From a virus, in IMG/VR virus record IMGVR_UViG_3300009504_000007, positions 1-48,678 of that record: a stretch of DNA of 48,678 bases. One strand, given 5' to 3'. The notes beneath the pieces are model-generated. The model saw only the letters and a program-made list of their open reading frames with translations. It did not search any database and had not been told where the DNA came from. This document shows, in pieces, positions 1 through 48,678 of the stretch (its first letter is position 1; each line of letters starts with the position of its first letter). Both the position numbers and the translations under genes were made by a program.

Positions 1-3000
1 GAACTAAGTCTTTTATTATCTACGTTGTAGAATTTATCCGATAGAAACTCTTCTAAAGCTGAAGTTTCTCCTGCAAGTATTTGTTTCTTAGTAAGTTCAG
101 TGTTACCAAAAACTACGGCTGTATAATTAGTACTAGTACCCTGACCTGAAGTTTTTATGTAGAACTTAGATTTAGTTTTCCCTTCAAACTCTTTACTTCT
201 ACCTTTGGCTTCGTGAACCATGTAGGCGTAAGTATTGATTAGCTCAAAGGCGTTGTTATAATTATCAAGTGTTGGATTTAATAGCAGATGTTTAATTACA
301 TTTATAATATTATCCCTGTCTGTTTTTCTAAGTCTAACTCTGTCAGCAGGTATAATCATACCATCTACTTCAGCGTAGATAAATCCAGGTCTTACACCCC
401 TAGTCTCTCCAGTAACTTCGTTAACCAAAGTATCGTTGATAGGTACAAGTATGGTTGTTTGTTTAGCTTCTTCTTTAGTAAGAGTTCTAGATTGTTGTTC
501 TAAACGAATAGCGCCAGAGGTTTTACCTGTGATTTTAAGTTGCAACCCTTCAACTTCTTGCACAACTGCTTGTCTGATAGTATTCTCAAATTGTTTTACA
601 GCTTCTGTATAAGCCTCTTCTGGATTAGTGGTATCTTTCATATCCACTAACTCTTCACCACTAGTTCTTTTATTAAATGGTATATTACCGTTAACGTCAG
701 TTAAGTCTGACATAAACGCAAACTGAATGGTGTTACTTTCAGAGAAGTGTGATTTCTGCTCAATAGCGTTACCTTTACTATCTGAAAGTACTAAAATAAC
801 ACTATAATCATCCCTATAAAGACCTGAAGCTTCTAGTCTCGATAATAAATCTTGTGAAAGTTTATCTGCAAATTTAGCTTTAAAACTTGCCCAAGTATAA
901 GCTACAAGAGTTTCTTTACTTTTGGGATTCCACTTATCTATAAACTGTTGAAATCTGATAAGTGGTTCGTATACAGGAGCTAGGGAATTATCTTCCTCTA
1001 CGAACTGTATAAACTTATGTTGGGCATTTGTAGTTCTAAGAAAACTTGAGGGGCCAACAAACGGCTGTCTTGGATTGGTATTTTTAGGGTCTTCATTAAG
1101 TTGAGGAGAATCTTCGTACTCTTCTTCAAGAACAGTTCTATCGCTACTTTCAGGTTTTGTAGATGTTTTCTTGGGGGTAGCTGCTTTAGTTTTCTTAGCT
1201 TCTTTTTTAATAGGAGTACCTTGCAGCTTAACCATAGTAGCTTCGAGTTCTTCGTTAGCTTGATTAACTAACCTCTCATGCTCTTCTTTAGTAATATTTT
1301 TAGCTTTTAAATCAGCGTCAAGTTGAGTGATTTTTTCCTGAAACTCCTCTATAGCAACATCTTCGTTCTGCGCTGTTACTTCTTCTGTAGCTTCTGGATT
1401 CGCCTCTTTAACTTCATCGGGAACGTTTTGTGGATTCTTCTGTGCTTCATCTAATTTATCTAATAATTGCATTTCAGCATCTACTACAGCATCGTAATAT
1501 TCTTGAATTGCAGCTTTGTCGATAAGCATGTCAAAGTCTTTAACTAAATTTCCTATAATCTTCGGAATTTCAGATTGAGTCTTTTGAAGTCTTTTAGTTT
1601 CTGCGATAATATCCTTAGTTTGCGTAGGGTTATTTTGCAGTTCTAATATTTTTGCAGTAACTACGTTAAGTCTTTCCTGAAGAAAATCTATGTTATTAAG
1701 AGTGTTTATTTGAGCATAGGTAATTTGCTGTCCAAAATAAGCTTTAAATGTATTAAACTCCTTTTTAGGTACTTCGTGAGTATTCTCTAATCCATAAAGA
1801 AATTCTCCATAATTATCGTTAACTCTATCTACAATTTCCTGTAACTTAGCTACCTGTTTCTTCAAAGCAATCTTGTGTTGCTCAAAAGACATCTTATCTT
1901 TTGTTACTTCTTTACCTTTTACGTAATCGTTATAAGCGTCTTCAGTAACTTTATCAATTTGTTTATTAAGTAATTCAATACCCCCCTCAACAGTGAGTAG
2001 CTTATATCCCCACGAAAGCAACGCACTTCTCTCTATCATACCTACTAACTCTTCTTTAGCTGCTAAGGTACTTAAATCTTTGATAGTATCCTGTTTAGTA
2101 ATAGTAGCTACCCCCTCTAACTTACTATATACATCTATAACCGCTTTAGAGAAAGATTTAGAATCAGTAAGATTAAATGTACTTCTATCCACTAACGTTT
2201 CAAGTACCATATTAGGATTACGCATAACTATATCATTAAGCGCAGCCACCCGTCTGTTAATAGCTTTATTTTTAGATACAGCACCCTTAACACCTCCAAG
2301 ACCACCTAATACTCCTCCGAGAAATATAGCTTTCTGAAAATTTACGTCCCCCAAACTTTCCCAATAAGTACTTAATACTCCATTAATAAATCCCTTATCA
2401 GTCTCATCAAACGCAAGAGCCTTGAAATATTGAGAAGAGCTTTCTTGTAGCCCCTCTTCCCAAAATCCTTCGGAAAGAATACCCTTACTTACATTTTGTG
2501 TAATTCTTGCAAAAGCTTCTTTACGAGTAACTGCAGACCCCGCACGTAATAATCCAGCATCGTCTATAAATCTACCAGCAATAGAAGCAGGAGAGTCAAA
2601 TAACTTTCCGAACAACATTCTGTTCATTATAATATTAGGACCAATAAGTATGCCTACGTTAGCTGCAAAAGTACCTGCTTGCGCATCTGCAATTTGTACA
2701 TCAATCTCTTGACTTCTTTGTAGTACTAATTCCTCTATCTGCTCAGATGCAACCCCTTGTTTAGATAATTCGTATTTGTACTCTTCAAGTTTTCTATCTC
2801 TTTCTTCTCGCATCTCAATACCTAGATGGGCTGCTTCTGTACCTGCTTCACCCACAGTTTGCAGAGCAGTAGCTACGCCAAGACCTATATTTCTGGCTAA
2901 AGATGATGAAACCCCTAAAGCTTGTAATCCAGGACCTAATCCCCCCGTTAAATAACCTGTAGCAGCAGCAGCAGCAAAAAACGCAGCAGCATCAGTACCT

Positions 3001-3521
3001 TCTTCCATCCAAAAGGAAAGAGATTTAATATGCTCCCATAGGTTACCGTCCTTTACGTTCTTAGGGTAGTATATTGGAAAAATTTCTTTAAGTTTTTTTT
3101 CAGCACCTCTAAACAACTCTGAAAGGGGGTTATCAGTCATTGCACTAATATCTCCTGTCATAGCCCATGCTGGTGCGGATAATGCGTACCCTGACATCTC
3201 AGCAAATTTAGTAGCTGTAGTTACAGGGAATCTAATAACTGCCCCATGAACTAATTTATCTAACCTGCTTTGCTGCCTGCCTCTCCAATCTGGAATACCA
3301 CTAGGATCTTCTATGGCGTGAAATGGGGTACCTTCGTCAAACTTACTAGTGCCGAAGGTTTTAAAAGTATGCCCCATCTGATGAACAGGAGTACTTACAT
3401 CACTAAGTTGAGTTAGAGGAGAAGACGTAGCTTGTCTTTCATATACTTCAGGTCGATTTGTAGGCAGTATAAGGCTTTTTTCCTCAAACGCCTTAGCCTC
3501 TTCAGGTGTAAATCTTATCAT
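1..3521 (-). CDS. Giant internal virion (cargo-type) protein, 3' end beyond the window
   Basis: An open frame starts with ATG at 3519-3521 (MIRFTPEEAK...) and runs without a stop for 1173 codons to the left edge, so it is partial. The N-terminal third has Ala/Gly-rich hydrophobic stretches (around residues 165-200 and 260-290). The middle is long charged helix, and a Lys/Glu/Pro-rich linker lies near residues 690-790. I recognise no enzyme motif. In crAss-like phages the genes just after the tail muzzle encode very large proteins stored in the capsid and tail and ejected with DNA. Position, size and the hydrophobic segments fit that role, but this is inference. A fragment of the virion RNA polymerase is less likely, because no polymerase motif is visible in this part. 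Confidence 0.7.
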   Translation of the reverse strand, partial: MIRFTPEEAKAFEEKSLILPTNRPEVYERQATSSPLTQLSDVSTPVHQMGHTFKTFGTSKFDEGTPFHAIEDPSGIPDWRGRQQSRLDKLVHGAVIRFPVTTATKFAEMSGYALSAPAWAMTGDISAMTDNPLSELFRGAEKKLKEIFPIYYPKNVKDGNLWEHIKSLSFWMEEGTDAAAFFAAAAATGYLTGGLGPGLQALGVSSSLARNIGLGVATALQTVGEAGTEAAHLGIEMREERDRKLEEYKYELSKQGVASEQIEELVLQRSQEIDVQIADAQAGTFAANVGILIGPNIIMNRMLFGKLFDSPASIAGRFIDDAGLLRAGSAVTRKEAFARITQNVSKGILSEGFWEEGLQESSSQYFKALAFDETDKGFINGVLSTYWESLGDVNFQKAIFLGGVLGGLGGVKGAVSKNKAINRRVAALNDIVMRNPNMVLETLVDRSTFNLTDSKSFSKAVIDVYSKLEGVATITKQDTIKDLSTLAAKEELVGMIERSALLSWGYKLLTVEGGIELLNKQIDKVTEDAYNDYVKGKEVTKDKMSFEQHKIALKKQVAKLQEIVDRVNDNYGEFLYGLENTHEVPKKEFNTFKAYFGQQITYAQINTLNNIDFLQERLNVVTAKILELQNNPTQTKDIIAETKRLQKTQSEIPKIIGNLVKDFDMLIDKAAIQEYYDAVVDAEMQLLDKLDEAQKNPQNVPDEVKEANPEATEEVTAQNEDVAIEEFQEKITQLDADLKAKNITKEEHERLVNQANEELEATMVKLQGTPIKKEAKKTKAATPKKTSTKPESSDRTVLEEEYEDSPQLNEDPKNTNPRQPFVGPSSFLRTTNAQHKFIQFVEEDNSLAPVYEPLIRFQQFIDKWNPKSKETLVAYTWASFKAKFADKLSQDLLSRLEASGLYRDDYSVILVLSDSKGNAIEQKSHFSESNTIQFAFMSDLTDVNGNIPFNKRTSGEELVDMKDTTNPEEAYTEAVKQFENTIRQAVVQEVEGLQLKITGKTSGAIRLEQQSRTLTKEEAKQTTILVPINDTLVNEVTGETRGVRPGFIYAEVDGMIIPADRVRLRKTDRDNIINVIKHLLLNPTLDNYNNAFELINTYAYMVHEAKGRSKEFEGKTKSKFYIKTSGQGTSTNYTAVVFGNTELTKKQILAGETSALEEFLSDKFYNVDNKRLS

Positions 3522-38848: not shown

Positions 38849-40249
38849 TTATGTCGTAGTTGATACAATTCCAGCGTTGTCTACAACTAATTTATAGAGT
38901 GTTCCATTAGGGCTTTTCAATACTATTGAAGCCGTACCGTTTTGTTTAAACGTACCATCGGCCTCAAAGGTGGTGTTGTTTGTTTCCGTTCCAAATATGG
39001 CTTCCGGCACTCTTATCTTCTTTTCGTCTTTAGGTCTTATTTGGTCGTAATATGGTGCATCTTCCAAATCGGCCATCATTACATACGTTTCATCTGCTGA
39101 ACTACTTGCCCCCCATGCGCATCGCTTCGGAGTTGTATCTGCAATCCATTCAGCGTTTGTGTAGTATCCTGAATTTGCACCCTCGAAAGGAATATCATCG
39201 TCATCGGAATACTTTGTTTCTGCTAAGTTTTCTGCTGTCCAAATCTGTGTGCCTATTTTAACGGCCTTGTATTTTTTACCATCATTGCCTGTATAATAAT
39301 CTACAAAAGCCCCATCCCTTAAAAGTTGCTCATCAATGGTGGCATCTCTTACAACCCTAATTGCATGGCCGTATTTTTTTGCGCCATATTGCGAAATCCC
39401 AAAACTAAAGTTGCTGCTGGAAAACATTTGTGCAATCCAAGCATTAGTTGTGTTAAAGTTCGTTGCCGTCCACAAATAAGCACCATACCCCAATCCCCCC
39501 GGTGAGCTTGCATAAAAAGAACCATTTGTATTGCTCCTGTTTGAACTTGGAACAATACCCATACCAAATGTATTATGGCCTGAATATGATGAACTAACCC
39601 ACCTTGGATGCTCACTTGTTAAACATTCGCCCCCAAGTGGTGAATTTACCTGCCTACAGGATTTTAAATATCTGCCTTGCAGGCTTGATGTTATTCCTAG
39701 CAAATCTAAATAAGAATTTAAATCTGTGTAATCTGCACTTGTTGGCATACGCCATCCATCACTTGTGTTTATTATACCGCGAGCATCGTCAACGGCATAC
39801 CAATTATAAAGGTATCCGTATTGAACAGGCAAACGCTCAAAGGTATCATTTTCCCATTTACTTTCATCAAACGAAACATAACCCTTATTACCATCTTCAT
39901 CTGTACCATAAGATTTACCAGGCCCAGGACTTTCCTCATCTCCAACAAGTTGTAGGTTACCACCATCAATCTCTATAGAGTTCTTAGGTTCTATTACAGG
40001 CATCTCTATCGTAGTACTTTCTCCATCCTGTAAATTTATAGTAAACGTACCATCGTTATTGTCTACAATACTGTCTATACCCACTTTAGACATTCTAGCT
40101 AACCACTCATTCAATTCTCTGACCATAATACGTCTATAAGTCATAAATAACCTCTCGTGTTGCGTACCAAAGATTTTTATGAAGTTAGAACCGTCTACAG
40201 CTAAGTCTGAGAAAGTTATTTCTTCAGGTATTTTATATTCTTCTGACAT
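38849..40249 (-). CDS. Tail adhesin with Fib_succ_major domain and variable-region-like segment
   Basis: 466 residues. The N-terminal ~140 residues (EYKIPEEITFSDLAVDGSNF and a beta segment with IDSIVDNNDGTFTINLQDGE) probably attach it to the virion. Residues about 140-400 are a Fib_succ_major (C-type-lectin-like) domain: LPVQYGYLYNWYAVDD, SCRQVNSPLGGEC, the segment LWTATNFNTTNAWIAQMFSS, YGHAIRVVRD, then GTQIWTAENLAETKYSDD. The Asn/Ser-rich stretch before HAIRVVRD looks like variable regions of retroelement-diversified proteins. It is paralogous to the protein at 15795-16655. Probable role: host surface binding. Confidence 0.75.
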   Translation of the reverse strand: MSEEYKIPEEITFSDLAVDGSNFIKIFGTQHERLFMTYRRIMVRELNEWLARMSKVGIDSIVDNNDGTFTINLQDGESTTIEMPVIEPKNSIEIDGGNLQLVGDEESPGPGKSYGTDEDGNKGYVSFDESKWENDTFERLPVQYGYLYNWYAVDDARGIINTSDGWRMPTSADYTDLNSYLDLLGITSSLQGRYLKSCRQVNSPLGGECLTSEHPRWVSSSYSGHNTFGMGIVPSSNRSNTNGSFYASSPGGLGYGAYLWTATNFNTTNAWIAQMFSSSNFSFGISQYGAKKYGHAIRVVRDATIDEQLLRDGAFVDYYTGNDGKKYKAVKIGTQIWTAENLAETKYSDDDDIPFEGANSGYYTNAEWIADTTPKRCAWGASSSADETYVMMADLEDAPYYDQIRPKDEKKIRVPEAIFGTETNNTTFEADGTFKQNGTASIVLKSPNGTLYKLVVDNAGIVSTTT

Positions 40250-40326: not shown

Positions 40327-40752
40327 TCATAGGTACAAGCCGAGCCGCACCCCGAGGTCCGTCAGACGACGCGCTGACGAATCGTAGAAGCTCAGGCAGA
40401 AGGGCCCCGAATTAACGCCATCGATCAGGCCACCCCCGACGAGAGCGACACGCCAACCAGCAGAGGTGGAGGCATAATGATAATCGCAATAGTAAGTGTC
40501 AGAACCCACACCGGTACCTCCAACTGTTTTAGGAACTATCTCACCAAGGTGCATTTCTTTTACATAACCACTTGCTGTTAACGCCCCCACTGTTTCGTAG
40601 CCATCTGGGGGCACGCCGTCCGCATCTGCCCCATTAGCAAACTGATTATAGTTGGTGCATTTATAGGCCGTTCCAACACCAGATGCGGTATAAAACAGAG
40701 CTATGCCATCGAGAAATTCCCAGATATGACCAAAGAAATCTTCAATACCCAT
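40327..40752 (-). CDS. DGR-type variable C-type-lectin domain, lacking its own N-terminus
   Basis: 141 residues beginning MGIEDFFGHIWEFLDG. The C-terminal part has SAGWRVALVGG (about residues 97-107), SGPFCL (115-120) and DLGVRLGLYL (132-141), the pattern of Bacteroidales diversity-generating-retroelement target proteins. The family conservation continues upstream of the ATG (FVGGTTDLETEVVSF in frame), so a longer ancestral protein was cut. The frame is shared with the gene at 40828-41436 but interrupted by TAA at 40828 and again at 40816. The 3' end is much more GC-rich than the surroundings. No reverse transcriptase or template repeat was seen nearby. Confidence 0.75.
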   Translation of the reverse strand: MGIEDFFGHIWEFLDGIALFYTASGVGTAYKCTNYNQFANGADADGVPPDGYETVGALTASGYVKEMHLGEIVPKTVGGTGVGSDTYYCDYHYASTSAGWRVALVGGGLIDGVNSGPFCLSFYDSSARRLTDLGVRLGLYL

Positions 40753-40827
40753 AAATGATACTACCTCTGTTTCTAAATCGGTTGTGCCGCCTACAAATTT
40801 TCTCGTTTTTAAGTGTTAATTATTCTG

Positions 40828-41436
40828 TTATGGAGTCGGAGGTACAAGTACTATTTCAACACTTATAAACCCCTCTATATTCTTGTCAGAGTCACCGCTT
40901 GAATTAAAAACTAAAAATACTCCAAAATCATTTGTCGCACTTACCCCGCAATTTTCAACGGTATTACTACCAATATCAAGGAAACTGAAATTTTTAACCA
41001 AAACCATGCTCGCATCAAAGTTTTCGATTCCTTCTGGGGGTATTAAAATAAAAATAAATGGTGAAATACCATCTAATAACCCTGTTGATATATTATAACC
41101 TGTACTGTTAAAGGGTACATCAGCGATTTGTATTTGTGTTTTGCTTTCAATCCCGTTGATTAATAAGTGTGCTTCTTTATACCCCTTAACGGGCCACGGT
41201 GTACCAGCAGGTAAACTACTTTCACCCTCAACTATTCCACGCCACATTGTACCGTTGTAAAGTACCTGTTTACCTGTGGGTATTGTTGCGGGGAGTTCGG
41301 CAACTACCATGTAAGCTGATTCCGCTTGTGGTTGTTCTGCTTGTGGTTGTTCTGCAAGCTCCTTTTGTACCCACCTGGCTATTTCTACTCCTTTTTTTCC
41401 ATATCTGGAAATTACTTTACCATAATCTATACTCAT
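40828..41436 (-). CDS. Tail adhesin/adaptor with SRYGKKG N-terminal module
   Basis: 202 residues. The N-terminal 25 residues (YGKVISRYGKKGVEIARWVQ) match the start of the 468-residue protein at 41714-43120 and are likely a shared virion-docking module. A short AEQPQ repeat (residues ~29-38) follows, then a beta-rich domain (MVVAELPATIPTGKQVLYNG onward). It ends with PPTP and TAA, in the same frame as the variable lectin domain downstream. It may be the original N-terminal half of a DGR-target adhesin, or a stand-alone appendage. Confidence 0.6.
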   Translation of the reverse strand: MSIDYGKVISRYGKKGVEIARWVQKELAEQPQAEQPQAESAYMVVAELPATIPTGKQVLYNGTMWRGIVEGESSLPAGTPWPVKGYKEAHLLINGIESKTQIQIADVPFNSTGYNISTGLLDGISPFIFILIPPEGIENFDASMVLVKNFSFLDIGSNTVENCGVSATNDFGVFLVFNSSGDSDKNIEGFISVEIVLVPPTP

Positions 41437-41468
41437 AATGTTTTTTGTTTAGCTTTTATACAAATAAT
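41434..41468 (-). repeat. 35-bp identical repeat before adhesin start, copy 1
   Basis: This 35-bp stretch, including the start codon's ATG, is identical to 43118-43152. Both copies lie directly upstream of genes with the SRYGKKG N-terminal module. The coding parts that follow have diverged far more at the DNA level. Confidence 0.85.
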
Positions 41469-41713: not shown

Positions 41714-43120
41714 CTATAAGAATGAAATTCTTGGAACTGTCTGGGACACGAACTCCCCGGCATTGTTCAGGTAGACAACTTTATAGGCATCCGCTGCGAC
41801 TGAGTTGCCTGTGCGAAGTATCTGAAATGTTGCCGTGCCTGATATACTGTACAGACCCGTTAAGTCCAACCCTGAACTTGTGGATGGTGGGTAGTAGTTA
41901 CACTCAACACATCGTAAGTTTCTTGTATCGGTTGAATAAAAAAGAATGAAGCTCCCTTTAGAAAACAAAAAACCACCCCTGGTGTATACTGAATCTATAT
42001 ACCCATGAATTTCAAAAAACGACTTGATGCTTGAACTTCTCATATATGAAATTATTCCACCAACTAAACTAACGCCAATAACGGAGTTACTGATATCAGT
42101 TATATAATTATTCCCAGACCACCCAGAGGTAAAAGTAAGGAATGTAGAAATATACGTACTTCGAATAAAACCATTAATTACAAAAGTTGAGTGTATCCCC
42201 ATATACCAATCATTTTCACAAACAAGAACACCAACCATTTCCTTACCCGAGCCATAAAAATAGGGGGACAGCCTAAATACAATATTTACAATAGTTGAAT
42301 TGTTTGCAGTACTTTCTTGATATGGGTTATTACTTGCCGCAAACCCCTTTATGTGAACATTATAGCAGTAATCTTCGCCGCCATCAAACGTGTAAAAGTC
42401 CTGGTAATCTTCTGGGTCAGATTGTACCTTTGCAAACTTATTTATCACTATTTCTTCATCCGTTGGGGAAATGTATGCGTCGGGGTAATATTCATTATTT
42501 ACCCCTTCAGTGAGATTAGCGTCCCCACCAGTGTATTTCCATCTGCGAAACTTCACGTTACGCCAGTCATAAGTGGTTGAGATATCAAGTTTTGTATCAT
42601 GGCGGAAATAGATTACACCCTTTAATCCTGGTATATACTCATGCACCCAACCTACTTGTTTTCTGTCGGCATAATTGGTAAAAGAAATATCCCAGTAGAA
42701 ATTCCCATTATTCCAGTCATAGTGCAAAATGTCCTGTGGGTGTTTCTCGGAGTATGCTTCGTGGGATAGTTTATTTTCCGATAAGGCAACAACAATCAAT
42801 GGTTCTATTTCACATTGCCTCACTTCATATTCTGTGAATTGTAAATATTCTGATGGCGAATCCGGATTCCAATTACCGTATTTAAGTTTCGTAGGGTAAT
42901 AAACCGTTTGGTAGTCGGTTATGCGATAATAAGCGCCTTTAGATAATTCCTCTGCTTGAATTTTACTAACCAACCCTTCATATGTCACATCAGTGATGCC
43001 TCCACCACCTGGAGTAGGGAGTGGTACATTCTCTTCTATAGCCCTTTTTCCCCATTTTATAATTTCAGCCCCCTTCTTTCCGTATCTAGAGACTAGTTTT
43101 GTGTAATCTAATTCATTCAT
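41714..43120 (-). CDS. Tail adhesin with SRYGKKG module and beta-helix-like body
   Basis: 468 residues. The N-terminus YTKLVSRYGKKGAEIIKWGK is the module shared with the 202-residue protein. A Pro/Gly linker (PLPTPGGGG, residues ~33-41) leads to a domain with AYYRITDYQTVYYP, then a long series of short strands rich in Ser, Tyr, Ile and Asn (residues 270-430), as in right-handed beta-helix fibres, and a C-terminal NAGEFVSQTVPRISFL. It is probably a receptor-binding or depolymerase-like appendage. No catalytic residues were identified. Confidence 0.6.
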   Translation of the reverse strand: MNELDYTKLVSRYGKKGAEIIKWGKRAIEENVPLPTPGGGGITDVTYEGLVSKIQAEELSKGAYYRITDYQTVYYPTKLKYGNWNPDSPSEYLQFTEYEVRQCEIEPLIVVALSENKLSHEAYSEKHPQDILHYDWNNGNFYWDISFTNYADRKQVGWVHEYIPGLKGVIYFRHDTKLDISTTYDWRNVKFRRWKYTGGDANLTEGVNNEYYPDAYISPTDEEIVINKFAKVQSDPEDYQDFYTFDGGEDYCYNVHIKGFAASNNPYQESTANNSTIVNIVFRLSPYFYGSGKEMVGVLVCENDWYMGIHSTFVINGFIRSTYISTFLTFTSGWSGNNYITDISNSVIGVSLVGGIISYMRSSSIKSFFEIHGYIDSVYTRGGFLFSKGSFILFYSTDTRNLRCVECNYYPPSTSSGLDLTGLYSISGTATFQILRTGNSVAADAYKVVYLNNAGEFVSQTVPRISFL

Positions 43121-43152
43121 AATGTTTTTTGTTTAGCTTTTATACAAATAAT
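43118..43152 (-). repeat. 35-bp identical repeat before adhesin start, copy 2
   Basis: Identical to 41434-41468 over 35 bp. Here it spans the 3' end of the small membrane-protein gene and the adhesin leader, showing that the repeat extends into different upstream coding contexts. Confidence 0.85.
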
Positions 43153-43357: not shown

Positions 43358-43516
43358 TTAATCAGGAGCTCCATCTAACTCGTCTTCAATAGCTTTAACC
43401 CTAGCTTCCAGAGAAATGATTGTGTTAGCCAGTGATTGCATCCTGTTATAGAATTCTATAATAAGATGAGAAATACGTTTACCGTAGAACTTAATAAGAT
43501 TTTTGTGATCTAACAT
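43358..43516 (-). CDS. Small helical protein (52 aa)
   Basis: MLDHKNLIKFYGKRISHLII... ends with the acidic coiled-coil-like LEARVKAIEDELDGAPD. The ATG is at 43514-43516, 42 nt after the tRNA, and its stop lies 2 nt before the next ATG. Length and coupling support a real gene; function is unknown. Confidence 0.6.
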   Translation of the reverse strand: MLDHKNLIKFYGKRISHLIIEFYNRMQSLANTIISLEARVKAIEDELDGAPD

Positions 43517-43557
43517 GGTATGTGAGGTGTTAAGTTTATATCATTTATGAACTGTAG

Positions 43558-43630
43558 AGCCTGGAGAGAGACTCGAACTCCCAACAACTTCTTTACAAGA
43601 GAAGTTTTCTACCGATTGAAATACCCAGGC
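43558..43630 (-). tRNA. tRNA-Thr(UGU)
   Basis: A complete 73-nt cloverleaf: acceptor GCCTGGG/TCCAGGC (last pair G-U), D stem TTTC/GAAA with AATCGGTA loop, anticodon stem CTTCT/AGAAG with loop CTTGTAA (anticodon TGT), 5-nt variable loop, T stem GGGAG/CTCTC with loop TTCGAGT, discriminator T. The 3' CCA is not encoded. It reads ACA codons, common in this AT-rich genome. It is carried on a transcript that begins about 220 nt upstream. Confidence 0.9.
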
Positions 43631-43850
43631 TAGTACTATGTACTAACTATCTAACTACCTTAACTTTCTTTCACTCTTGGATACACGAGGGGTATCCCCT
43701 GTTCCGAGTTTTCCCATTTCTGTAGTTTAATAGGCGGTACGATACCCTCATTACACCCAACCCAGGGAGATTGTTACCCACTCTTATTCCTGGCCCTATT
43801 AGTGACTACCGAATGTACTGTCCAGATTAAACATCATAGACTACCCAATA
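43631..43850 (-). ncRNA. Structured, GC-richer RNA leader upstream of tRNA-Thr
   Basis: The 220-nt stretch between the promoter and the tRNA holds no open frame of note. It can form GAGGGGTATC/GATACCCTC (43687-43696 with 43741-43749), an alternative perfect hairpin AGGGG-TAT-CCCCT (43688-43700), CCAGG/CCTGG (43762-43766 with 43789-43793) and AGTAC-TAT-GTACT (43632-43644). It is visibly richer in G and C than neighbouring non-coding DNA. It does not fit a tRNA. A stable phage RNA released when the tRNA is processed is my inference. Confidence 0.4.
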
Positions 43851-43857
43851 GTATCTG

Positions 43858-43889
43858 CAAATATACAACAATATTTTATAATAACCAAA
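43858..43889 (-). promoter_or_regulatory. Strong Bacteroides-type promoter for the RNA leader and tRNA
   Basis: Minus strand: TTTG (43886-43889), 20-nt spacer, TATATTTG (43858-43865), a perfect consensus. Predicted start is near 43851, at the edge of the structured region. The remaining gap to 43943 is plain AT-rich DNA. Confidence 0.85.
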
Positions 43890-43943
43890 TAAAACTTAAG
43901 ATTTTTTCAAAATATTTTCTTGGAGTATAGCTAAAGTTTAACT

Positions 43944-44123
43944 TTATCCTCCTATGAAGTTCATATTACTCCAACCAGCACCCCACCACTTCTTCTTAAA
44001 CGTAACTTTCTCTAACCATCGTACTTCAAGTTTACCACTACTCCATACACTTACAGGTAACCAAGCAAATCTAGTTACAGTTTTAACTTCATCTATTTCA
44101 GGCCATCGTTTTGTAAACTTCAT
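43944..44123 (-). CDS. Small Trp-rich basic protein (59 aa)
   Basis: I choose the ATG at 44121-44123 (MKFTKRWPEIDEVKTVTRFA), 1 nt after the upstream stop, rather than a longer frame that would overlap the neighbour by 71 nt. The product is basic and Trp-rich (KKKWWGAGWSN near the end), probably a single small beta domain. Function unknown. Confidence 0.6.
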   Translation of the reverse strand: MKFTKRWPEIDEVKTVTRFAWLPVSVWSSGKLEVRWLEKVTFKKKWWGAGWSNMNFIGG

Positions 44124-44124
44124 A

Positions 44125-44460
44125 TTATATATCTTTAATACTTTCTGAGAATATTTTAACTTTAAAACTTTTTGGATTGAATACTTTGAATACAATACGC
44201 TCTAAAAAGTTTCTTGGCGTAAAACTAACTTCTTTAATTTTATACATATAAGTAGTGTTTTCTACAGTTTCAAAAACATCTAACCACCTATCCTCTTTAA
44301 CCACTGATACCGGAGTAGCTATGTCTTTAAGAAGATTATTAAGCTTACCTACATTCAAAGTCTCGTTTAATATTTTAGTGTGTTCCAGTTCTTGCATACG
44401 TCTATACTCTTCTTTAAACTCCCTACTCTTAAACCAGTTACCGCTGTTAATCTCTTCCAT
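44125..44460 (-). CDS. Hypothetical protein, first gene of the late block
   Basis: 111 residues: a charged helical N-terminal half (EEYRRMQELEHTKILNETLN) and a beta-rich C-terminal half. No recognised domain. It is the first minus-strand gene from the divergent region, with a Bacteroides-type promoter about 25 nt upstream, and is coupled to the 59-residue gene. Confidence 0.6.
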   Translation of the reverse strand: MEEINSGNWFKSREFKEEYRRMQELEHTKILNETLNVGKLNNLLKDIATPVSVVKEDRWLDVFETVENTTYMYKIKEVSFTPRNFLERIVFKVFNPKSFKVKIFSESIKDI

Positions 44461-44481
44461 ACAATAAGTTTTAAATTTCTA

Positions 44482-44512
44482 CAAAGATACTAATAATATC
44501 TGAAGTTTCAAA
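44482..44512 (-). promoter_or_regulatory. Bacteroides-type promoter of the divergent region (leftward)
   Basis: Minus strand: TTTG (44509-44512), 19-nt spacer, TATCTTTG (44482-44489). It drives the first late-strand genes. No matching promoter facing right was found in the same region. Confidence 0.8.
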
Positions 44513-44594
44513 ATTTATTTTATAAAATTTTTATGTGACTAGGGACAGATGAGTGTACTATAACTTTTTGTAAAAATTTTTTGTGTTAACAAAA

Positions 44595-44658
44595 GTGAGG
44601 AGGTTATCCAATCAACCACCCCACCTCAAATTTGCAGGGGAGCATAGTCCCCACTCAC
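44595..44658 (+). promoter_or_regulatory. Structured leader element of the rightward genes
   Basis: GTGAG (44595-44599) pairs with CTCAC (44654-44658), enclosing GGTT/AACC (44602-44605 with 44614-44617) and GGGG/CCCC (44637-44640 with 44649-44652): a possible three-way junction just before the first rightward gene. The rest of the divergent gap is AT-rich with no other clear feature. Confidence 0.4.
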
Positions 44659-44664
44659 CTTATT

Positions 44665-44680
44665 AGTAACCTAAATTCAC
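44665..44680 (+). promoter_or_regulatory. Start-proximal early motif, copy 1
   Basis: AGTAACCTAAATTCAC ends 6 nt before the ATG of the 59-residue gene. It belongs to the family AGTAACCACTTAATTCAC found at a similar distance before several rightward genes. Confidence 0.5.
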
Positions 44681-44686
44681 ACTCCG

Positions 44687-44866
44687 ATGAGAACTGTAAC
44701 AATCACTTGGAAATCCAACAAATCAGACCGCTTTTGGCTCGGCACCAAAGAACTTCTTAGCTCAGGCTTTTACGCTCGGTACACTATTGAAGTTACCGAA
44801 GAGCTATTCGCTACAATTGGTGAAGTTAGCGACGAAATCGAAGTACCTACCGAAGCTCTGCGATAA
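44687..44866 (+). CDS. First rightward gene, small beta-rich protein (59 aa)
   Basis: MRTVTITWKSNKSDRFWLGT..., ending EVPTEALR. Predicted mainly beta-strand, soluble, no recognised motif. It is notably GC-richer with well-chosen codons than its non-coding flanks and is the first gene on the rightward strand, preceded by the shared start-proximal motif and a structured leader. This suggests an early, well expressed protein of unknown function. Confidence 0.7.
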   Translation: MRTVTITWKSNKSDRFWLGTKELLSSGFYARYTIEVTEELFATIGEVSDEIEVPTEALR

Positions 44867-44891
44867 GCAGAGTTTTCGGTTCGTATTTATA

Positions 44892-44931
44892 CGTGTGGTT
44901 CGCAACCCGCCAAAAAGTTGCGAATCACACG
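44892..44931 (+). terminator. Long perfect hairpin after the first rightward gene
   Basis: CGTGTGGTTCGCAAC pairs with GTTGCGAATCACACG over 15 bp (one G-U) around a 10-nt loop. No T-run follows, so it may be a processing or RNA-stability element rather than an intrinsic terminator. Confidence 0.65.
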
Positions 44932-44959
44932 AGATTGTAAAACAATTCAATCAACCAAT

Positions 44960-44975
44960 CAACCACTAAATTCAT
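44960..44975 (+). promoter_or_regulatory. Start-proximal early motif, copy 2
   Basis: CAACCACTAAATTCAT ends 6 nt before the ATG at 44982. It closely resembles the copies before 44687, 45370 and 46126. Confidence 0.45.
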
Positions 44976-44981
44976 ATAGTG

Positions 44982-45065
44982 ATGAAGAAACAAACTGTGT
45001 ACGTACAGAATCCTGATGGCTCTTTGAGTATCAGAGGACAGCATACGTCTTACGATAGGAAGTAG
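44982..45065 (+). CDS. Possible micro-protein (27 aa)
   Basis: MKKQTVYVQNPDGSLSIRGQ ... YDRK. The only support is the start-proximal motif at the usual distance and a plausible soluble sequence with a DGS turn. It could be a chance frame. Confidence 0.35.
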   Translation: MKKQTVYVQNPDGSLSIRGQHTSYDRK

Positions 45066-45066
45066 T

Positions 45067-45262
45067 AACTTTGGTATGAAGGAATAACCACACTGTGATG
45101 CTGTATTAACAGATAGTCAGTCAAGAGAGTACGTGGGGATTACTAAAGTTCTATTTTTGATTGTAACTTGTTGATTTAGTGTGGATTGAGGGGGAGTAGC
45201 AACTCCTCCCCTCTCCACGCTCAATTTCCAATATCAGTAAACCCATTGTGGTTTATAGATAT
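45067..45262 (+). ncRNA. Gene-free stretch with three stem-loop structures
   Basis: The 304-nt gap 45066-45369 has no credible gene. AACTTTGGTA (45067-45076) pairs with TACTAAAGTT (45141-45150, one G-U) and encloses CTGT-ATTA-ACAG. GTGGA...TCCAC (45181-45218) encloses GGAGT/ACTCC with a G/C-rich stem. ATATC-AG-TAAACC pairs with GGTTTA-TA-GATAT (45231-45262). A CACTC-ATT-GAGTG hairpin follows at 45283-45295. The density of stems suggests structured RNA. Confidence 0.4.
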
Positions 45263-45346
45263 AGCATAACTATTAACACAGCCACTCATTGAGTGAGAGT
45301 CCAAAGCCTCTGTAAATTGTGGATGGATAGTCAGAAATTCATAGTA

Positions 45347-45362
45347 TCAACCATAAATCTAC
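45347..45362 (+). promoter_or_regulatory. Start-proximal early motif, copy 3
   Basis: TCAACCATAAATCTAC ends 7 nt before the ATG at 45370, similar to TCAACCACTAAATTCAT before the 27-residue frame. Confidence 0.4.
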
Positions 45363-45369
45363 AACCAAC

Positions 45370-45567
45370 ATGACAACTTACATCATAATAGACGGGTATT
45401 CCATAAGTGACAAACACAAATGGGAAAGCGCAGAAACTCCTCACGAAGAACCTGTAAAAATAGTAATTGTTCACAGTTATGTGGAAGAAATAATTACTGA
45501 TAGGTTAAAACTGAAAGAGTATTTGTCTGATGCAGTGTTAGGCAAAGATTATTTAATCCGTAATTAA
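45370..45567 (+). CDS. Small rightward-gene protein (65 aa)
   Basis: MTTYIIIDGYSISDKHKWES... has a hydrophobic strand at the start (YIIIDGYSI), a beta strand VKIVIVHSYV and a C-terminal helix. Soluble, alpha/beta, no recognised motif. It has the upstream motif and is followed by a branched stem-loop structure. Function unknown. Confidence 0.6.
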   Translation: MTTYIIIDGYSISDKHKWESAETPHEEPVKIVIVHSYVEEIITDRLKLKEYLSDAVLGKDYLIRN

Positions 45568-45578
45568 CTTTAATCTAT

Positions 45579-45675
45579 TTTGATAGTAGAACAAACAGAG
45601 TGTTATTAAGGACGTATACTTAATAACTGAAACCATTGGACTAACACTGAGCTGTAAAGTGCCACTACTATCAAA
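45579..45675 (+). ncRNA. Branched stem-loop element between rightward genes
   Basis: TTTGATAGTAG (45579-45589) pairs perfectly with CTACTATCAAA (45665-45675). Inside, GTTATTAAG (45602-45610) pairs perfectly with CTTAATAAC (45619-45627). AGTGTTA (45599-45605) can instead pair with TAACACT (45642-45648), giving two mutually exclusive folds. A 97-nt structured RNA or processing element is likely. Confidence 0.45.
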
Positions 45676-45694
45676 GTCTTAGATATTAAATACA

Positions 45695-45710
45695 AGTAAT
45701 CACTTAATAT
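45695..45710 (+). promoter_or_regulatory. Start-proximal early motif, copy 4
   Basis: AGTAATCACTTAATAT, 8 nt before the ATG at 45719. With its flank it shares 17 of 18 bases (TACAAGTAAYCACTTAAT) with the copy before 46126. Confidence 0.55.
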
Positions 45711-45718
45711 ATAAGAAA

Positions 45719-45793
45719 ATGGTACTTCCAATAACTCTTTTTTGGGCTCTATTCTTCATAGTTCTCTTATCACTAAACAATGATGAGACATGA
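45719..45793 (+). CDS. Membrane micro-protein (24 aa), coupled to the next gene
   Basis: MVLPITLFWALFFIVLLSLN is one hydrophobic helix with a short polar tail. Its TGA overlaps the next ATG (ATGA, 45790-45793), a coupling junction, and the start-proximal motif lies upstream of this ATG rather than of the next gene. These two facts support translation. Confidence 0.6.
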   Translation: MVLPITLFWALFFIVLLSLNNDET

Positions 45794-46014
45794 AGATATA
45801 TTGTGTTAGTGCTGTCGATATGTTCGCAGACTACCCTTATAGGGCAGAAACAGTATCATATCACAAGTCTTTAGAGTCTGCAACAAAAGCTGCAGATGAA
45901 ATCAACAAATCTTATAGATTTGCTAAAGAAAACAATTGGTATGATGAGAACGGTAATCCGTTATGTAATTACCAATCTGAAGCGTCTATTGGAGAAATAG
46001 ATGTTTTAGACTAA
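45790..46014 (+). CDS. Small rightward-gene protein (74 aa)
   Basis: MKIYCVSAVDMFADYPYRAE ... SLESATKAADEINKSYRFAK. A start strand followed by 'Y-hKSLESATKAADEI' helix resembles small phage proteins that begin with 'MKIYVVS' and contain an 'A-x-x-A' helix; function is unknown. It is translationally coupled to the upstream membrane micro-protein. Confidence 0.6.
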   Translation: MKIYCVSAVDMFADYPYRAETVSYHKSLESATKAADEINKSYRFAKENNWYDENGNPLCNYQSEASIGEIDVLD

Positions 46015-46017
46015 TCC

Positions 46018-46093
46018 ATTAACTGAATACGATGTAGATGTAAGAAGATGAAATAGTTCCAACAGAGCTTAGCTTTACATCGTATCAGTTAAT
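46018..46093 (+). terminator. 18-bp long-arm hairpin between rightward genes
   Basis: ATTAACTG and ATACGATGTA (46018-46036, one bulged A) pair with TACATCGTAT and CAGTTAAT (46076-46093), 18 bp, around about 39 nt. It lies 4 nt after a stop codon and 8 nt before the next start motif. It might act in termination, RNase III cutting or mRNA stability. Confidence 0.55.
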
Positions 46094-46100
46094 TAATACA

Positions 46101-46118
46101 AGTAACCACTTAATTCAC
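46101..46118 (+). promoter_or_regulatory. Start-proximal early motif, copy 5
   Basis: AGTAACCACTTAATTCAC, 7 nt before the ATG at 46126; the best example, agreeing with copies 1, 2 and 4 at most positions. Confidence 0.55.
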
Positions 46119-46125
46119 AAATCAA

Positions 46126-46359
46126 ATGATAACAATTACAGTAATCCACGATAGTCTTCGCAATGGTAAATTTCCAGTTGAGAAGATTGAAGAAATCCAA
46201 GGTATGACCGTATCAATGGAGAAAATAGATACTTTCAAAGAGAAGTACTCTATAACTGTCGATACAACTATACATACAGATCCAATTCAAGACATTGCAG
46301 TTGAGATAGGTATGATGATACAATCGTACATCATGCTTGAACTGTACTTGAAGAAATAA
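46126..46359 (+). CDS. Small rightward-gene protein (77 aa)
   Basis: MITITVIHDSLRNGKFPVEK ... A strand-helix-strand first part and a hydrophobic C-terminal helix (VEIGMMIQSYIMLELYLKK), perhaps membrane-associated or part of a dimer interface. No recognised family. It lies between a long hairpin and the next small gene, 27 nt apart, so these two genes may share a transcript. Confidence 0.6.
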   Translation: MITITVIHDSLRNGKFPVEKIEEIQGMTVSMEKIDTFKEKYSITVDTTIHTDPIQDIAVEIGMMIQSYIMLELYLKK

Positions 46360-46386
46360 TGAAGTATTCACTTAACACCTAACCAA

Positions 46387-46656
46387 ATGAAATTTCCTGA
46401 TGACTTTGAAGTAAGCCCTCATTCAATAATTCCTGGTGCTAAACAATGGTCACTAAAAGTACCAGATGACTCACCTATTATAGAAACCAGTGATTTCATT
46501 GCAGGACAGACTATTATATCTGTTGTAGGCGGTGGAATGGGACTATATGGAAATGGAGTTACCACGTTTGAAATGTGGGACTACAGAGAAGATGATATTC
46601 ACGGACACTTAAGCGCAGAGGATATAAACACTCATTTAGAGAAGAATCCTCTATGA
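46387..46656 (+). CDS. Small rightward-gene protein (89 aa)
   Basis: MKFPDDFEVSPHSIIPGAKQ..., Gly-rich centre (VVGGGMGLYGNGVTTFEMWD) and acidic C-terminus (YREDDIHGHLSAEDINTHLE). Soluble, beta-rich; the sequence is clearly protein-like, with regular codon use, but no family is recognised. A weaker start-proximal motif (CACTTAA) lies 11 nt before the ATG. Confidence 0.65.
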   Translation: MKFPDDFEVSPHSIIPGAKQWSLKVPDDSPIIETSDFIAGQTIISVVGGGMGLYGNGVTTFEMWDYREDDIHGHLSAEDINTHLEKNPL

Positions 46657-46667
46657 CAATATAATAT

Positions 46668-46730
46668 AGCAGGAACGTAACAAAGAGACAGCATAAGAAT
46701 CTTTGAAAGCTTGTCCTCCTGCTGTATTTT
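46668..46730 (+). terminator. Probable terminator with two stems
   Basis: AGCAGGA (46668-46674) pairs with TCCTGCT (46717-46723) and encloses CAAAG/CTTTG (46681-46685 with 46701-46705). TGTATTTT follows, so this is the rightward hairpin in the region that looks most like an intrinsic terminator. Confidence 0.55.
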
Positions 46731-46770
46731 AATACTTAATTCTTAATTTACTAATTTAATACCAAAAGAT

Positions 46771-46956
46771 ATGAGAATCATTTTAGCGTTAGTAATGTTT
46801 ATAGTCCATATAATAGCTTCTATATGGGCAGTAGTAAGCTTTTTAGTATGGCTGGTTAAAGACCTGCCTTTCAATTGGTGGAGTGTTGTTGTATGCGTAT
46901 CTAGCTTATTAATAGGTCTTATTCTATGGATTATAGAAGCTATGCACAACGAATAG
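46771..46956 (+). CDS. Two-helix membrane protein (61 aa)
   Basis: MRIILALVMFIVHIIASIWA... has two membrane helices (about residues 3-28 and 36-55) with a short loop KDLPFNWW and a short C-terminal tail. Small early membrane proteins often change the host envelope or block superinfection, but nothing in the sequence shows which. It is isolated between structured elements. Confidence 0.6.
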   Translation: MRIILALVMFIVHIIASIWAVVSFLVWLVKDLPFNWWSVVVCVSSLLIGLILWIIEAMHNE

Positions 46957-46964
46957 CATAACTT

Positions 46965-47026
46965 CCTCTCACACACTATTATACAGTTTTAACCTTGACA
47001 GTTTTACAATGTAGTGTGTGTAGAGG
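46965..47026 (+). terminator. 14-bp hairpin after the membrane protein gene
   Basis: CCTCT and CACACACTA (46965-46978) pair with TAGTGTGTG and AGAGG (47012-47026, one bulged T). The left arm is part of a short repeat also found after the gene ending at 47764. Confidence 0.55.
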
Positions 47027-47052
47027 AGGTTTAATAACTAATTCATACCCAT

Positions 47053-47130
47053 ATGGTAGAGAAGCATAAAGTAATAATGCTATATGAGTGGGTTATGTGC
47101 AACCATTACCCTAAACCTTTTCTATCTTAA
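47053..47130 (+). CDS. Possible micro-protein (25 aa)
   Basis: MVEKHKVIMLYEWVMCNHYP..., preceded by ACTAATTCAT like the start-proximal motif. The same DNA also forms the left arm of a 12-bp inverted repeat (47074-47085 with 47142-47153) and is part of a direct repeat, so an RNA element is as likely as a gene. Confidence 0.25.
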   Translation: MVEKHKVIMLYEWVMCNHYPKPFLS

Positions 47131-47173
47131 ATAAGAATCTTATATAGCATTATCTTATTATTTTATACCTTAG

Positions 47174-47400
47174 AGTCGCTAAGCGTCTTGATGGTAGAGA
47201 AGTATAAAGCAATGATGAAAATACTGTGTATTGAACTATTAAACAAACTACGAGGTGTTCGGCATAATAATGCTTGTAGTTTAACAGTATATAATCTAAG
47301 TAGTCAGTGTGGTGGCAGCATATAATGCAGTTTAAGTGGAATTGGCTTGATCCAATCGGTTATATGCCTCAATAGTAGTAATACTATTGTAGTAGTTGTA
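47174..47400 (+). ncRNA. Multi-hairpin structured RNA candidate
   Basis: The stretch 47131-47551 has no convincing gene. ATACTGT/ACAGTAT (47221-47227 with 47284-47290) encloses AAACTACGAG/CTTGTAGTTT (47245-47254 with 47273-47282). CATATAA/TTATATG (47319-47325 with 47360-47366) encloses ATTGG/CCAAT (47341-47345 with 47352-47356). CAATAGTA/TACTATTG (47370-47377 with 47382-47389) closes a GTAA loop of GNRA type. Nested arms in series with a GNRA tetraloop are typical of functional RNA. The flank 47401-47551 shows only another copy of TAATAACTAATTCAC. Confidence 0.45.
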
Positions 47401-47551
47401 AAGGTTTTATTAATTGAAACTGGAGTAAAAGTAACTTATATATAGGATTAACAGTGGAAACAGAGTTACTAACCTAACAACATTGTGCGAGTGGGTTGAT
47501 TACCCATTAATAACTAATTCACAAAAAGTACTAATTCAAAAACATAAAACA

Positions 47552-47764
47552 ATGAAATACACAAAAGAAGAGTTTAAAAGACTTTGGGAATCCGATAACA
47601 ATGGTGGAGGATTGACATTTGATGATGTAGCTGACTGTGCTAAAGATTGGGGAATTAGTCAAAATCCTAGAATCAGACCAATGCTGGTAGTAAGATATCA
47701 AGTATTAAAAGCTGCCGATGTAGTAGACGCTGAAAATTATTTTCCTAATGAGGATGATTATTAA
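47552..47764 (+). CDS. Small acidic rightward-gene protein (70 aa)
   Basis: Start taken at ATG 47552 (MKYTKEEFKRLWESDNNGGG), not the longer frame from 47483, because the coding-like character begins here and an A-rich leader precedes it. It has a helix, then LTFDDVADCAKDWGIS and a C-terminal helix VRYQVLKAADVVDAENYF. The pattern 'TFDDVADCAKDWGI...P......V.Y.VLKAA' is seen in small phage proteins of unknown role. It probably heads a three-gene run. Confidence 0.65.
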   Translation: MKYTKEEFKRLWESDNNGGGLTFDDVADCAKDWGISQNPRIRPMLVVRYQVLKAADVVDAENYFPNEDDY

Positions 47765-47848
47765 CATAATCTCCTCTTACACACTGTTATTGAATTAATT
47801 ACCCACTAATAACTAGTTTAAAGATTCTTTAACTTAAAAACACATAAA

Positions 47849-48124
47849 ATGGAAATTCATTTAATTTTCTGGATATTGTATACTTTAATTAGTTTCGCAA
47901 TATCGTCTTGGACATATAACAACTTTGTTCAAGAGAATACTCTTAAATCTATAGCTACTTTCGTGGCTTTGATTGGAATTGCACTCTTAATTATATGGGT
48001 GCAAGACATTCTGTTCATTGAAGCAATTTATACAACATTATTATTGTGTAATATGTTTCTTATGGTAGTATTATATTTCCATAAAGACCTTGTAGAGTAT
48101 TTTGAAGAGGAGGAGATGTTATAA
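47849..48124 (+). CDS. Three-helix membrane protein (91 aa)
   Basis: Hydrophobic helices at about residues 3-22, 34-52 and 57-75, then an acidic tail (VEYFEEEEML). Its TAA shares an A with the next ATG (TAATG), so it is translationally coupled to the zinc-ribbon gene. Possible holin-like or envelope-modifying early protein; no family recognised. Confidence 0.6.
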   Translation: MEIHLIFWILYTLISFAISSWTYNNFVQENTLKSIATFVALIGIALLIIWVQDILFIEAIYTTLLLCNMFLMVVLYFHKDLVEYFEEEEML

Positions 48125-48279
48125 TGTACTCTTTAGAGTGTCCAGTATGTGGAGAAACGCTAAAAGTAGAACTCAATGAAGAGTTAGACTGTCCTTCTTG
48201 TAGTACAAAACTTTATATGGATTTTAGTCTAAACGAAGATTTAGATGAAGTTCCAGGATTGTTTATAGACAAACAATAG
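48124..48279 (+). CDS. Small zinc-ribbon protein (51 aa)
   Basis: MYSLECPVCGETLKVELNEE with a second pair LDCPSCSTKL: two CPxC knuckles about 18 residues apart form a compact zinc ribbon, followed by an acidic tail. It starts in the TAATG junction with the membrane protein gene. Such mini-ribbons may bind host RNA polymerase, DNA or a partner protein; which one cannot be read here. Confidence 0.7.
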   Translation: MYSLECPVCGETLKVELNEELDCPSCSTKLYMDFSLNEDLDEVPGLFIDKQ

Positions 48280-48282
48280 ATT

Positions 48283-48499
48283 AAACAATCGCTTGACTTG
48301 CAACAAGCAGATCGATGTAATAGGAGTCTAATTGAGTAATCATGCAAGGCCGACCTCATTGATTAGCATCTTCCAATGGTGTTTAGGTTTGTGTAAGTGT
48401 ATTCGACATGAACTCTATAATAATGTAATTACCCATTGTGGTTTTTATTGTAGGCTGTATTCTAAGATTACCCCTAATTGGAGGGGCAAGCGATTGTTT
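48283..48499 (+). ncRNA. Structured RNA candidate closed by a 13-bp helix
   Basis: AAACAATCGCTTG (48283-48295) is perfectly complementary to CAAGCGATTGTTT (48487-48499), closing a 217-nt domain. Inside: CTAAT.TGAG with CTCA...ATTAG (48328-48366), CCCCT/AGGGG (48471-48475 with 48482-48486), and an alternative GCTTG/CAAGC (48291-48295 with 48304-48308) that competes with the closing helix. Open frames inside are short and not gene-like. It begins 4 nt after the zinc-ribbon stop and ends 7 nt before the tRNA-like element. Confidence 0.5.
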
Positions 48500-48506
48500 T
48501 TAATAT

Positions 48507-48647
48507 GGAGTGGTGGCGGAAAGGTAGACGCTCTTGTAACAACAAGGATTTCATAAACAGGGTACAGCCATAGTAAGAAACGCTTCTGAAGATGGCTTCT
48601 TGTGATAGCGTGATTTGAAAATATAGGTTCGAATCCTGTCCACTTCA
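48507..48647 (+). ncRNA. tRNA-like element with class II D-arm and large pseudoknot-capable insert
   Basis: The ends form a tRNA frame: acceptor GGAGTGG (48507-48513) with CCACTTC (48640-48646, one G-U) and discriminator A; T-arm ATAGG-TTCGAAT-CCTGT (48623-48639); D-arm GCG-GAAAGGTAGA-CGC (48516-48531), as in tRNA-Leu. The middle does not give a 7-nt anticodon loop: CTTGT-AACA-ACAAG (48533-48546) has a 4-nt loop. About 75 extra nt follow. There AGCCAT/ATGGCT (48566-48571 with 48592-48597) and ACGCT/AGCGT (48580-48584 with 48606-48610) can form an H-type pseudoknot. It is too short for a known group I intron or a normal tmRNA. Confidence 0.6.
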
Positions 48648-48678
48648 CAAATAGTTTCAATATTAACTTAAATTCACA

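Follow-up and report, generated by a model that had tools for sequence, protein, structure and literature searches.

A truncated C-terminal part of a putative DGR-type tail protein in the fibre region of a crAss-like phage

Features of the locus

The analyzed window comprises the whole of the IMG/VR record IMGVR_UViG_3300009504_000007, a viral contig of 48,678 bases. Using PHROG profiles, a large terminase and a portal protein of the crAss type were identified, the gene pair by which membership of the Crassvirales was judged here. The large terminase (TerL) matched those of the crAss-like phages listed at 39–42%, and its nearest named relatives include cr111_1 (42%) and cr85_1 of the Steigviridae (41–42%). 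TerL proteins of IMG/VR contigs matched at up to 65–74%, and these contigs stop before the fibre region. No IMG/VR contig spanning the equivalent fibre region was found via the domain described below or via the 202-, 468-, 276- and 466-aa proteins of the window.

The gene of a 468-aa fibre-like protein (41714..43120, minus strand) carries a 36-nt leader (43117..43152, −), which is repeated exactly as the leader (41433..41468, −) of the gene for a separate, complete-looking 202-aa protein (40828..41436, −). The first ~30 residues of both proteins, with the N-terminal peptide DYxKxxSRYGKKGxEIxxW, are common as well. The 202-aa gene is followed by an ORF of 141 aa (40327–40752, −), hereafter called the fragment, and 77 nt downstream of it by the gene of a 466-aa protein with Fib_succ_major domain(s) (38849..40249, −), possibly a receptor-binding protein. 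A third likeness, at 43358–43516, was weak and not significant. At the ends of the window (1–3500 and 43400–48678), no frame longer than 115 aa was present with translation table 11, and the ORFs of either strand were mainly small; with tables 4 and 15, a few longer frames arose there, but only through several stops.

The first and sole in-frame ATG of the fragment is located at 40750..40752 (−). The frame is open from 40815 to 40330 (−) and bounded on its 5′ side by a TAA codon at 40816–40818, whereas the TAA at 40828–40830, 12 nt away, ends the 202-aa ORF. In the 162 codons of this open frame, neither an internal stop nor a frameshift was detected. The frame is that of the 202-aa ORF, an agreement for which the odds of an accident are one in three. 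The ORF, its ATG, both TAA codons and the common frame had been described in a first-pass annotation of the window and could all be confirmed. That annotation had taken the 202-aa ORF and the fragment for the two halves of a broken adhesin targeted by a diversity-generating retroelement (DGR), for two parts that are made separately and then assemble, or for a protein with a minor read-through form.

Homology and truncation of the domain

The PHROGs search assigned the fragment to phrog_5302 (tail protein; E 1.5e-29; positions 398–540 of 548), whereas no match was obtained in Pfam. A family profile of 428 positions, derived from 14 homologues, matched the frame in the window at positions 282–423, roughly its final third (E 1.1e-36). 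The C-terminal motif GWRVALVGG ... SGPFCL ... GVRL that had first drawn attention to the frame is real, with a homology far above chance, and 16 of 17 near-invariant family residues are retained in the fragment.

Using the domain as a tblastn query, 25 phage records were obtained, mainly of Bacteroides phages and crAss-like phages; many of the matched genes are labelled "tail protein", and several of the records have a reverse transcriptase (RT) beside the tail gene. Further IMG/VR homologues were gathered with a degenerate pattern for WRVALVGG. The domain was not confirmed in any member of a set holding one genome per prokaryote species, and no DNA similarity of the region was observed among the named phages. 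In the PDB, the sole match of the family profile was 5vf4, the DGR variable protein TaqVP of Thermus aquaticus (E 5.8e-4). The fragment is therefore homologous, in a C-terminal domain of the lectin type, to known targets of DGRs. AlphaFold2 modelled the fragment with a mean pLDDT of 44 and a full-length homologue with one of 41, a confidence too low for use. The profile matches support the view that the fragment represents the C-terminal end of a broken variable tail protein of the DGR type, and to this extent the earlier interpretation as a broken DGR adhesin stands.

The homologous part occupies 40327..40785 (−), and no start codon is present 5′ of its conserved portion. Upstream of the ATG, homology reaches only ~8–11 residues, starting from ~40776 (PHROGs) or ~40785 (family profile); the break-point zone of 40786..40830 (−) thus contains the end of homology and the two TAA codons. 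The region 5′ of the ATG corresponds to a linker of differing length across the family. Conserved residues had been noted there before, and the ~8–11 residues next to the ATG are indeed homologous, whereas a homology of the "FVGG" sequence could not be demonstrated. Neither table 4 nor table 15 extends the frame upstream.

All 17 homologous loci that are not cut off at the domain encode it within a single chain, with 260 to 759 residues ahead of it. Locus L064, a short piece cut by its own end and of the sequence type of L067, was left out of this count. A domain that invariably occurs by itself with its own start would have spoken against a broken gene; this was not observed, since all uncut homologues are long single chains. 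The first 281 positions of the family profile are absent from the window in all six frames (N-terminal profile, best E 2.6). Alignment A2 has 26 invariant columns, M1 not counted, and 16 of them lie in the missing part.

The lectin fold of TaqVP starts at residue 112 (PMC6328139), and the fragment aligns with TaqVP only from approximately residue 194. Since this alignment starts after strand beta-1 and helix alpha-1, both elements, in addition to the N-terminal part, are missing from the fragment, which hence does not hold a complete fold. Beta-1 is the strand that pairs with beta-5, which lies where the variable region ends.

These observations bear on the idea that the 141-aa frame is expressed alone from the ATG at 40752, a second protein supplying the rest of the lectin. 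The base composition 5′ of this ATG lies inside the range of real genes, so the short frame, which is open and has an ATG, might be translated. However, the ATG coincides with a residue inside the family proteins: it is located at the conserved (R/M)GIE(N/D) motif, where the full-length protein of LoVEphage has an internal Met, and therefore it does not have to be a start codon. Translation from this ATG would yield a product without beta-1 and alpha-1, the record encodes no partner that carries the N-terminal half, and none of the homologues stands alone. Independent production of the 141-aa protein is consequently regarded as very unlikely. The earlier proposal of two parts that are made separately and then assembled is likewise unsupported, as it needs the N-terminal half, which the record does not contain.

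Independence of the 202-aa protein

Two IMG/VR contigs (L002, 5011–5598, and L003, 4723–5310) were found to encode relatives of the 202-aa protein. Both are free-standing proteins of 195 aa that are 48–49% identical to the body of the 202-aa protein over the best segment, and they end in a proline-rich tail, as does the 202-aa protein. The 202-aa protein showed no similarity to the DGR tail proteins in their N-terminal half. The 202-aa ORF is therefore not the missing half of the target gene; the real N-terminal half is absent from the window. An uninterrupted version of the two ORFs, for which a comparison of relatives had been suggested, was not found either: the relatives of the 202-aa protein are free-standing, and the homologues of the domain have a different N-terminal half. 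The locus is hence an example of how a frame shared by chance can mimic a split gene.

Read-through into a longer, minor variant of the 202-aa protein, for which the common frame would speak, appears extremely improbable. Two TAA codons 12 nt apart would have to be passed, and TAA is not recoded in this phage: 28 of the 43 main genes of the record end in TAA, and TAA, TAG and TGA all serve as gene ends. Moreover, proteins related to the 202-aa protein terminate at a comparable position, and a fusion would not complete the fold, beta-1 and alpha-1 being absent from it as well.

The leader and N-terminus common to the 202-aa and 468-aa proteins point to a swapping of bodies between fibre genes. 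The genes around the 195-aa genes of L002 and L003 look by eye like the contractile-tail genes of a different type of phage, which suggests an exchange between unlike phages.

In Rhs and CDI genes, orphan tips are C-terminal tips without an N-terminal part that lie downstream of another tip-bearing gene. By analogy, a fibre gene of the present phage might have swapped its C-terminal part for another with a stop codon of its own, with the old tip remaining downstream as a silent donor that could be recombined back. The 202-aa protein is indeed chimeric, combining the leader and N-terminal peptide of the 468-aa protein with a body as in another phage type, and the old tip would lie downstream, in frame and undegraded. 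The 5′ flank of the fragment and the fibre genes, however, have no repeat in common, which leaves no visible route back by homologous recombination, and there is no sign that the old gene had the N-terminal peptide of the 202-aa and 468-aa proteins. Such a displaced tip is thus considered improbable. In contrast to the Rhs/CDI orphan tips, no homologous joining sequence was found here and the fragment is not a toxin, so that the resemblance is one of likeness only.

DGR components and origin of the fragment

In 11 of the 17 homologous loci (L005, L007, L008, L010, L011, L055, L060, L063, L066, L067 and L068), the target gene is immediately followed by a template repeat (TR) that differs from the variable region wholly or almost wholly at adenines. 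The same adenine rule revealed no TR in the whole 48.7-kb record. Neither a match to RVT_1 nor, by tblastn with five DGR-associated RTs (best E 0.04), an RT was detected in it. At many homologous loci, TR and RT are located where the gene of the 466-aa protein is found in the window. A hairpin after the variable region was not above shuffled sequences (z 0.15), and the same was true for the promoter and terminator scans. The record of 48.7 kb compares with 97–104 kb for the named crAss-like genomes compared here, and RT and TR may lie in the rest of the genome.

The variable-region-like 3′ end of the fragment (WRVALVGG...GVRL; 40327..40461, −) has an adenine content of 9.6% compared to 27.7% in the rest of the frame, and a GC3 of 0.70. 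This low adenine content is in agreement with past adenine mutagenesis, without proving it. In locus L058, a second copy resembling a variable region (2424–2446) was observed right behind the target gene; it is poor in adenine and thus no ordinary TR. Loci L067 and L068 (records G002 and G003) contain a target gene and a TR with no RVT_1 match within the available record; their RT may have diverged or been lost, or may have been cut off.

The nearest named relatives carrying the domain are cr85_1 and cr111_1. In both, an RT remnant of ~125 codons was found right behind a whole DGR-type tail gene (cr85_1, locus L009, NC_055883, 6503–6883; cr111_1, locus L004, NC_055880, 12520–12915), and a TR was not found in either. 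These loci can be regarded as putative decayed DGRs in two Steigviridae.

In a metagenomic record, the truncation could also be an artefact of assembly, the contig joining two fibre regions at 40785–40830, in which case the true genome would have a full-length target gene, perhaps with a DGR. Hypervariable, repeat-bearing DGR and fibre regions, here with an exact 36-nt repeat nearby, favour such mis-joins, and the retained part is undamaged. On the other hand, the 36-nt repeat is not located at the break, published crAss genomes often carry fragments of the target gene (PMC7290462), and TR and RT are missing just downstream as well, so that one mis-join cannot explain both sides. An assembly artefact is therefore rated as unlikely.

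The fragment is probably what remains, amid other fibre genes, of a decayed DGR cassette. The intact gene would have encoded a tail or receptor-binding protein ending in a C-type lectin domain, and the last ~40 residues of this tail tip would have been rewritten by adenine-directed mutagenic retrohoming. Its 5′ part would then have been lost, presumably through recombination or deletion in the fibre region, and so would TR and RT as far as the record shows. The remnant would now be flanked by the genes of other fibre-like proteins, the 202-aa protein upstream and the Fib_succ_major protein downstream. Most likely it makes no working protein, since its sole ATG is an old internal methionine and the product would be without beta-1 and alpha-1.

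Given an open frame that retains 16 of 17 near-invariant residues, the loss was probably recent; no close relative spanning the fibre region, by which it could be dated, was found. The undegraded state of the retained part also speaks against a remnant: it is expected for a very recent loss but also for a part under selection. That selection maintains the undamaged piece, as a silent tip donor or as a half-lectin completed by a partner elsewhere in the genome, is considered improbable.

With a remnant of this kind, the crAss phages carrying decayed DGR cassettes would include a Steigviridae-like one. Together with the RT remnants of cr85_1 and cr111_1, it hints at a former presence and later loss of DGRs in this branch.

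Compared to the phrog_5302 tail proteins, with homologues in the Bacteroides phage LoVEphage, cr60_1 and cr53_1, the fragment matches profile positions 398–540 of 548, whereas positions 1–397 are missing. With TaqVP (PDB 5vf4) it has the C-terminal variable region (VR) in common, but TaqVP is complete and the fragment aligned only after beta-1 and alpha-1. The crAss-like DGR cassettes, ordered target gene-VR-TR-RT (PMC7290462, PMC11054128 and PMC12386605), likewise have a C-terminal lectin of a tail protein with the VR at the 3′ extremity. In contrast to these, only the 3′ part of the target gene is present here, in a 48.7-kb record without TR or RT. In addition, the phage is a distant relative of the Steigviridae, a family that is not named among the earlier DGR carriers in the available part of PMC11054128. 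Target-gene fragments and incomplete cassettes have been published as common: in AlphacrAssvirinae candidate genus I, 22 of 90 genomes had a target-gene fragment only and 73% carried incomplete cassettes (PMC7290462), and in some Epsilon phages the RT has been fragmented or deleted (PMC11054128). The putative remnant is in line with these precedents and would be an ordinary outcome of gene decay or swapping.
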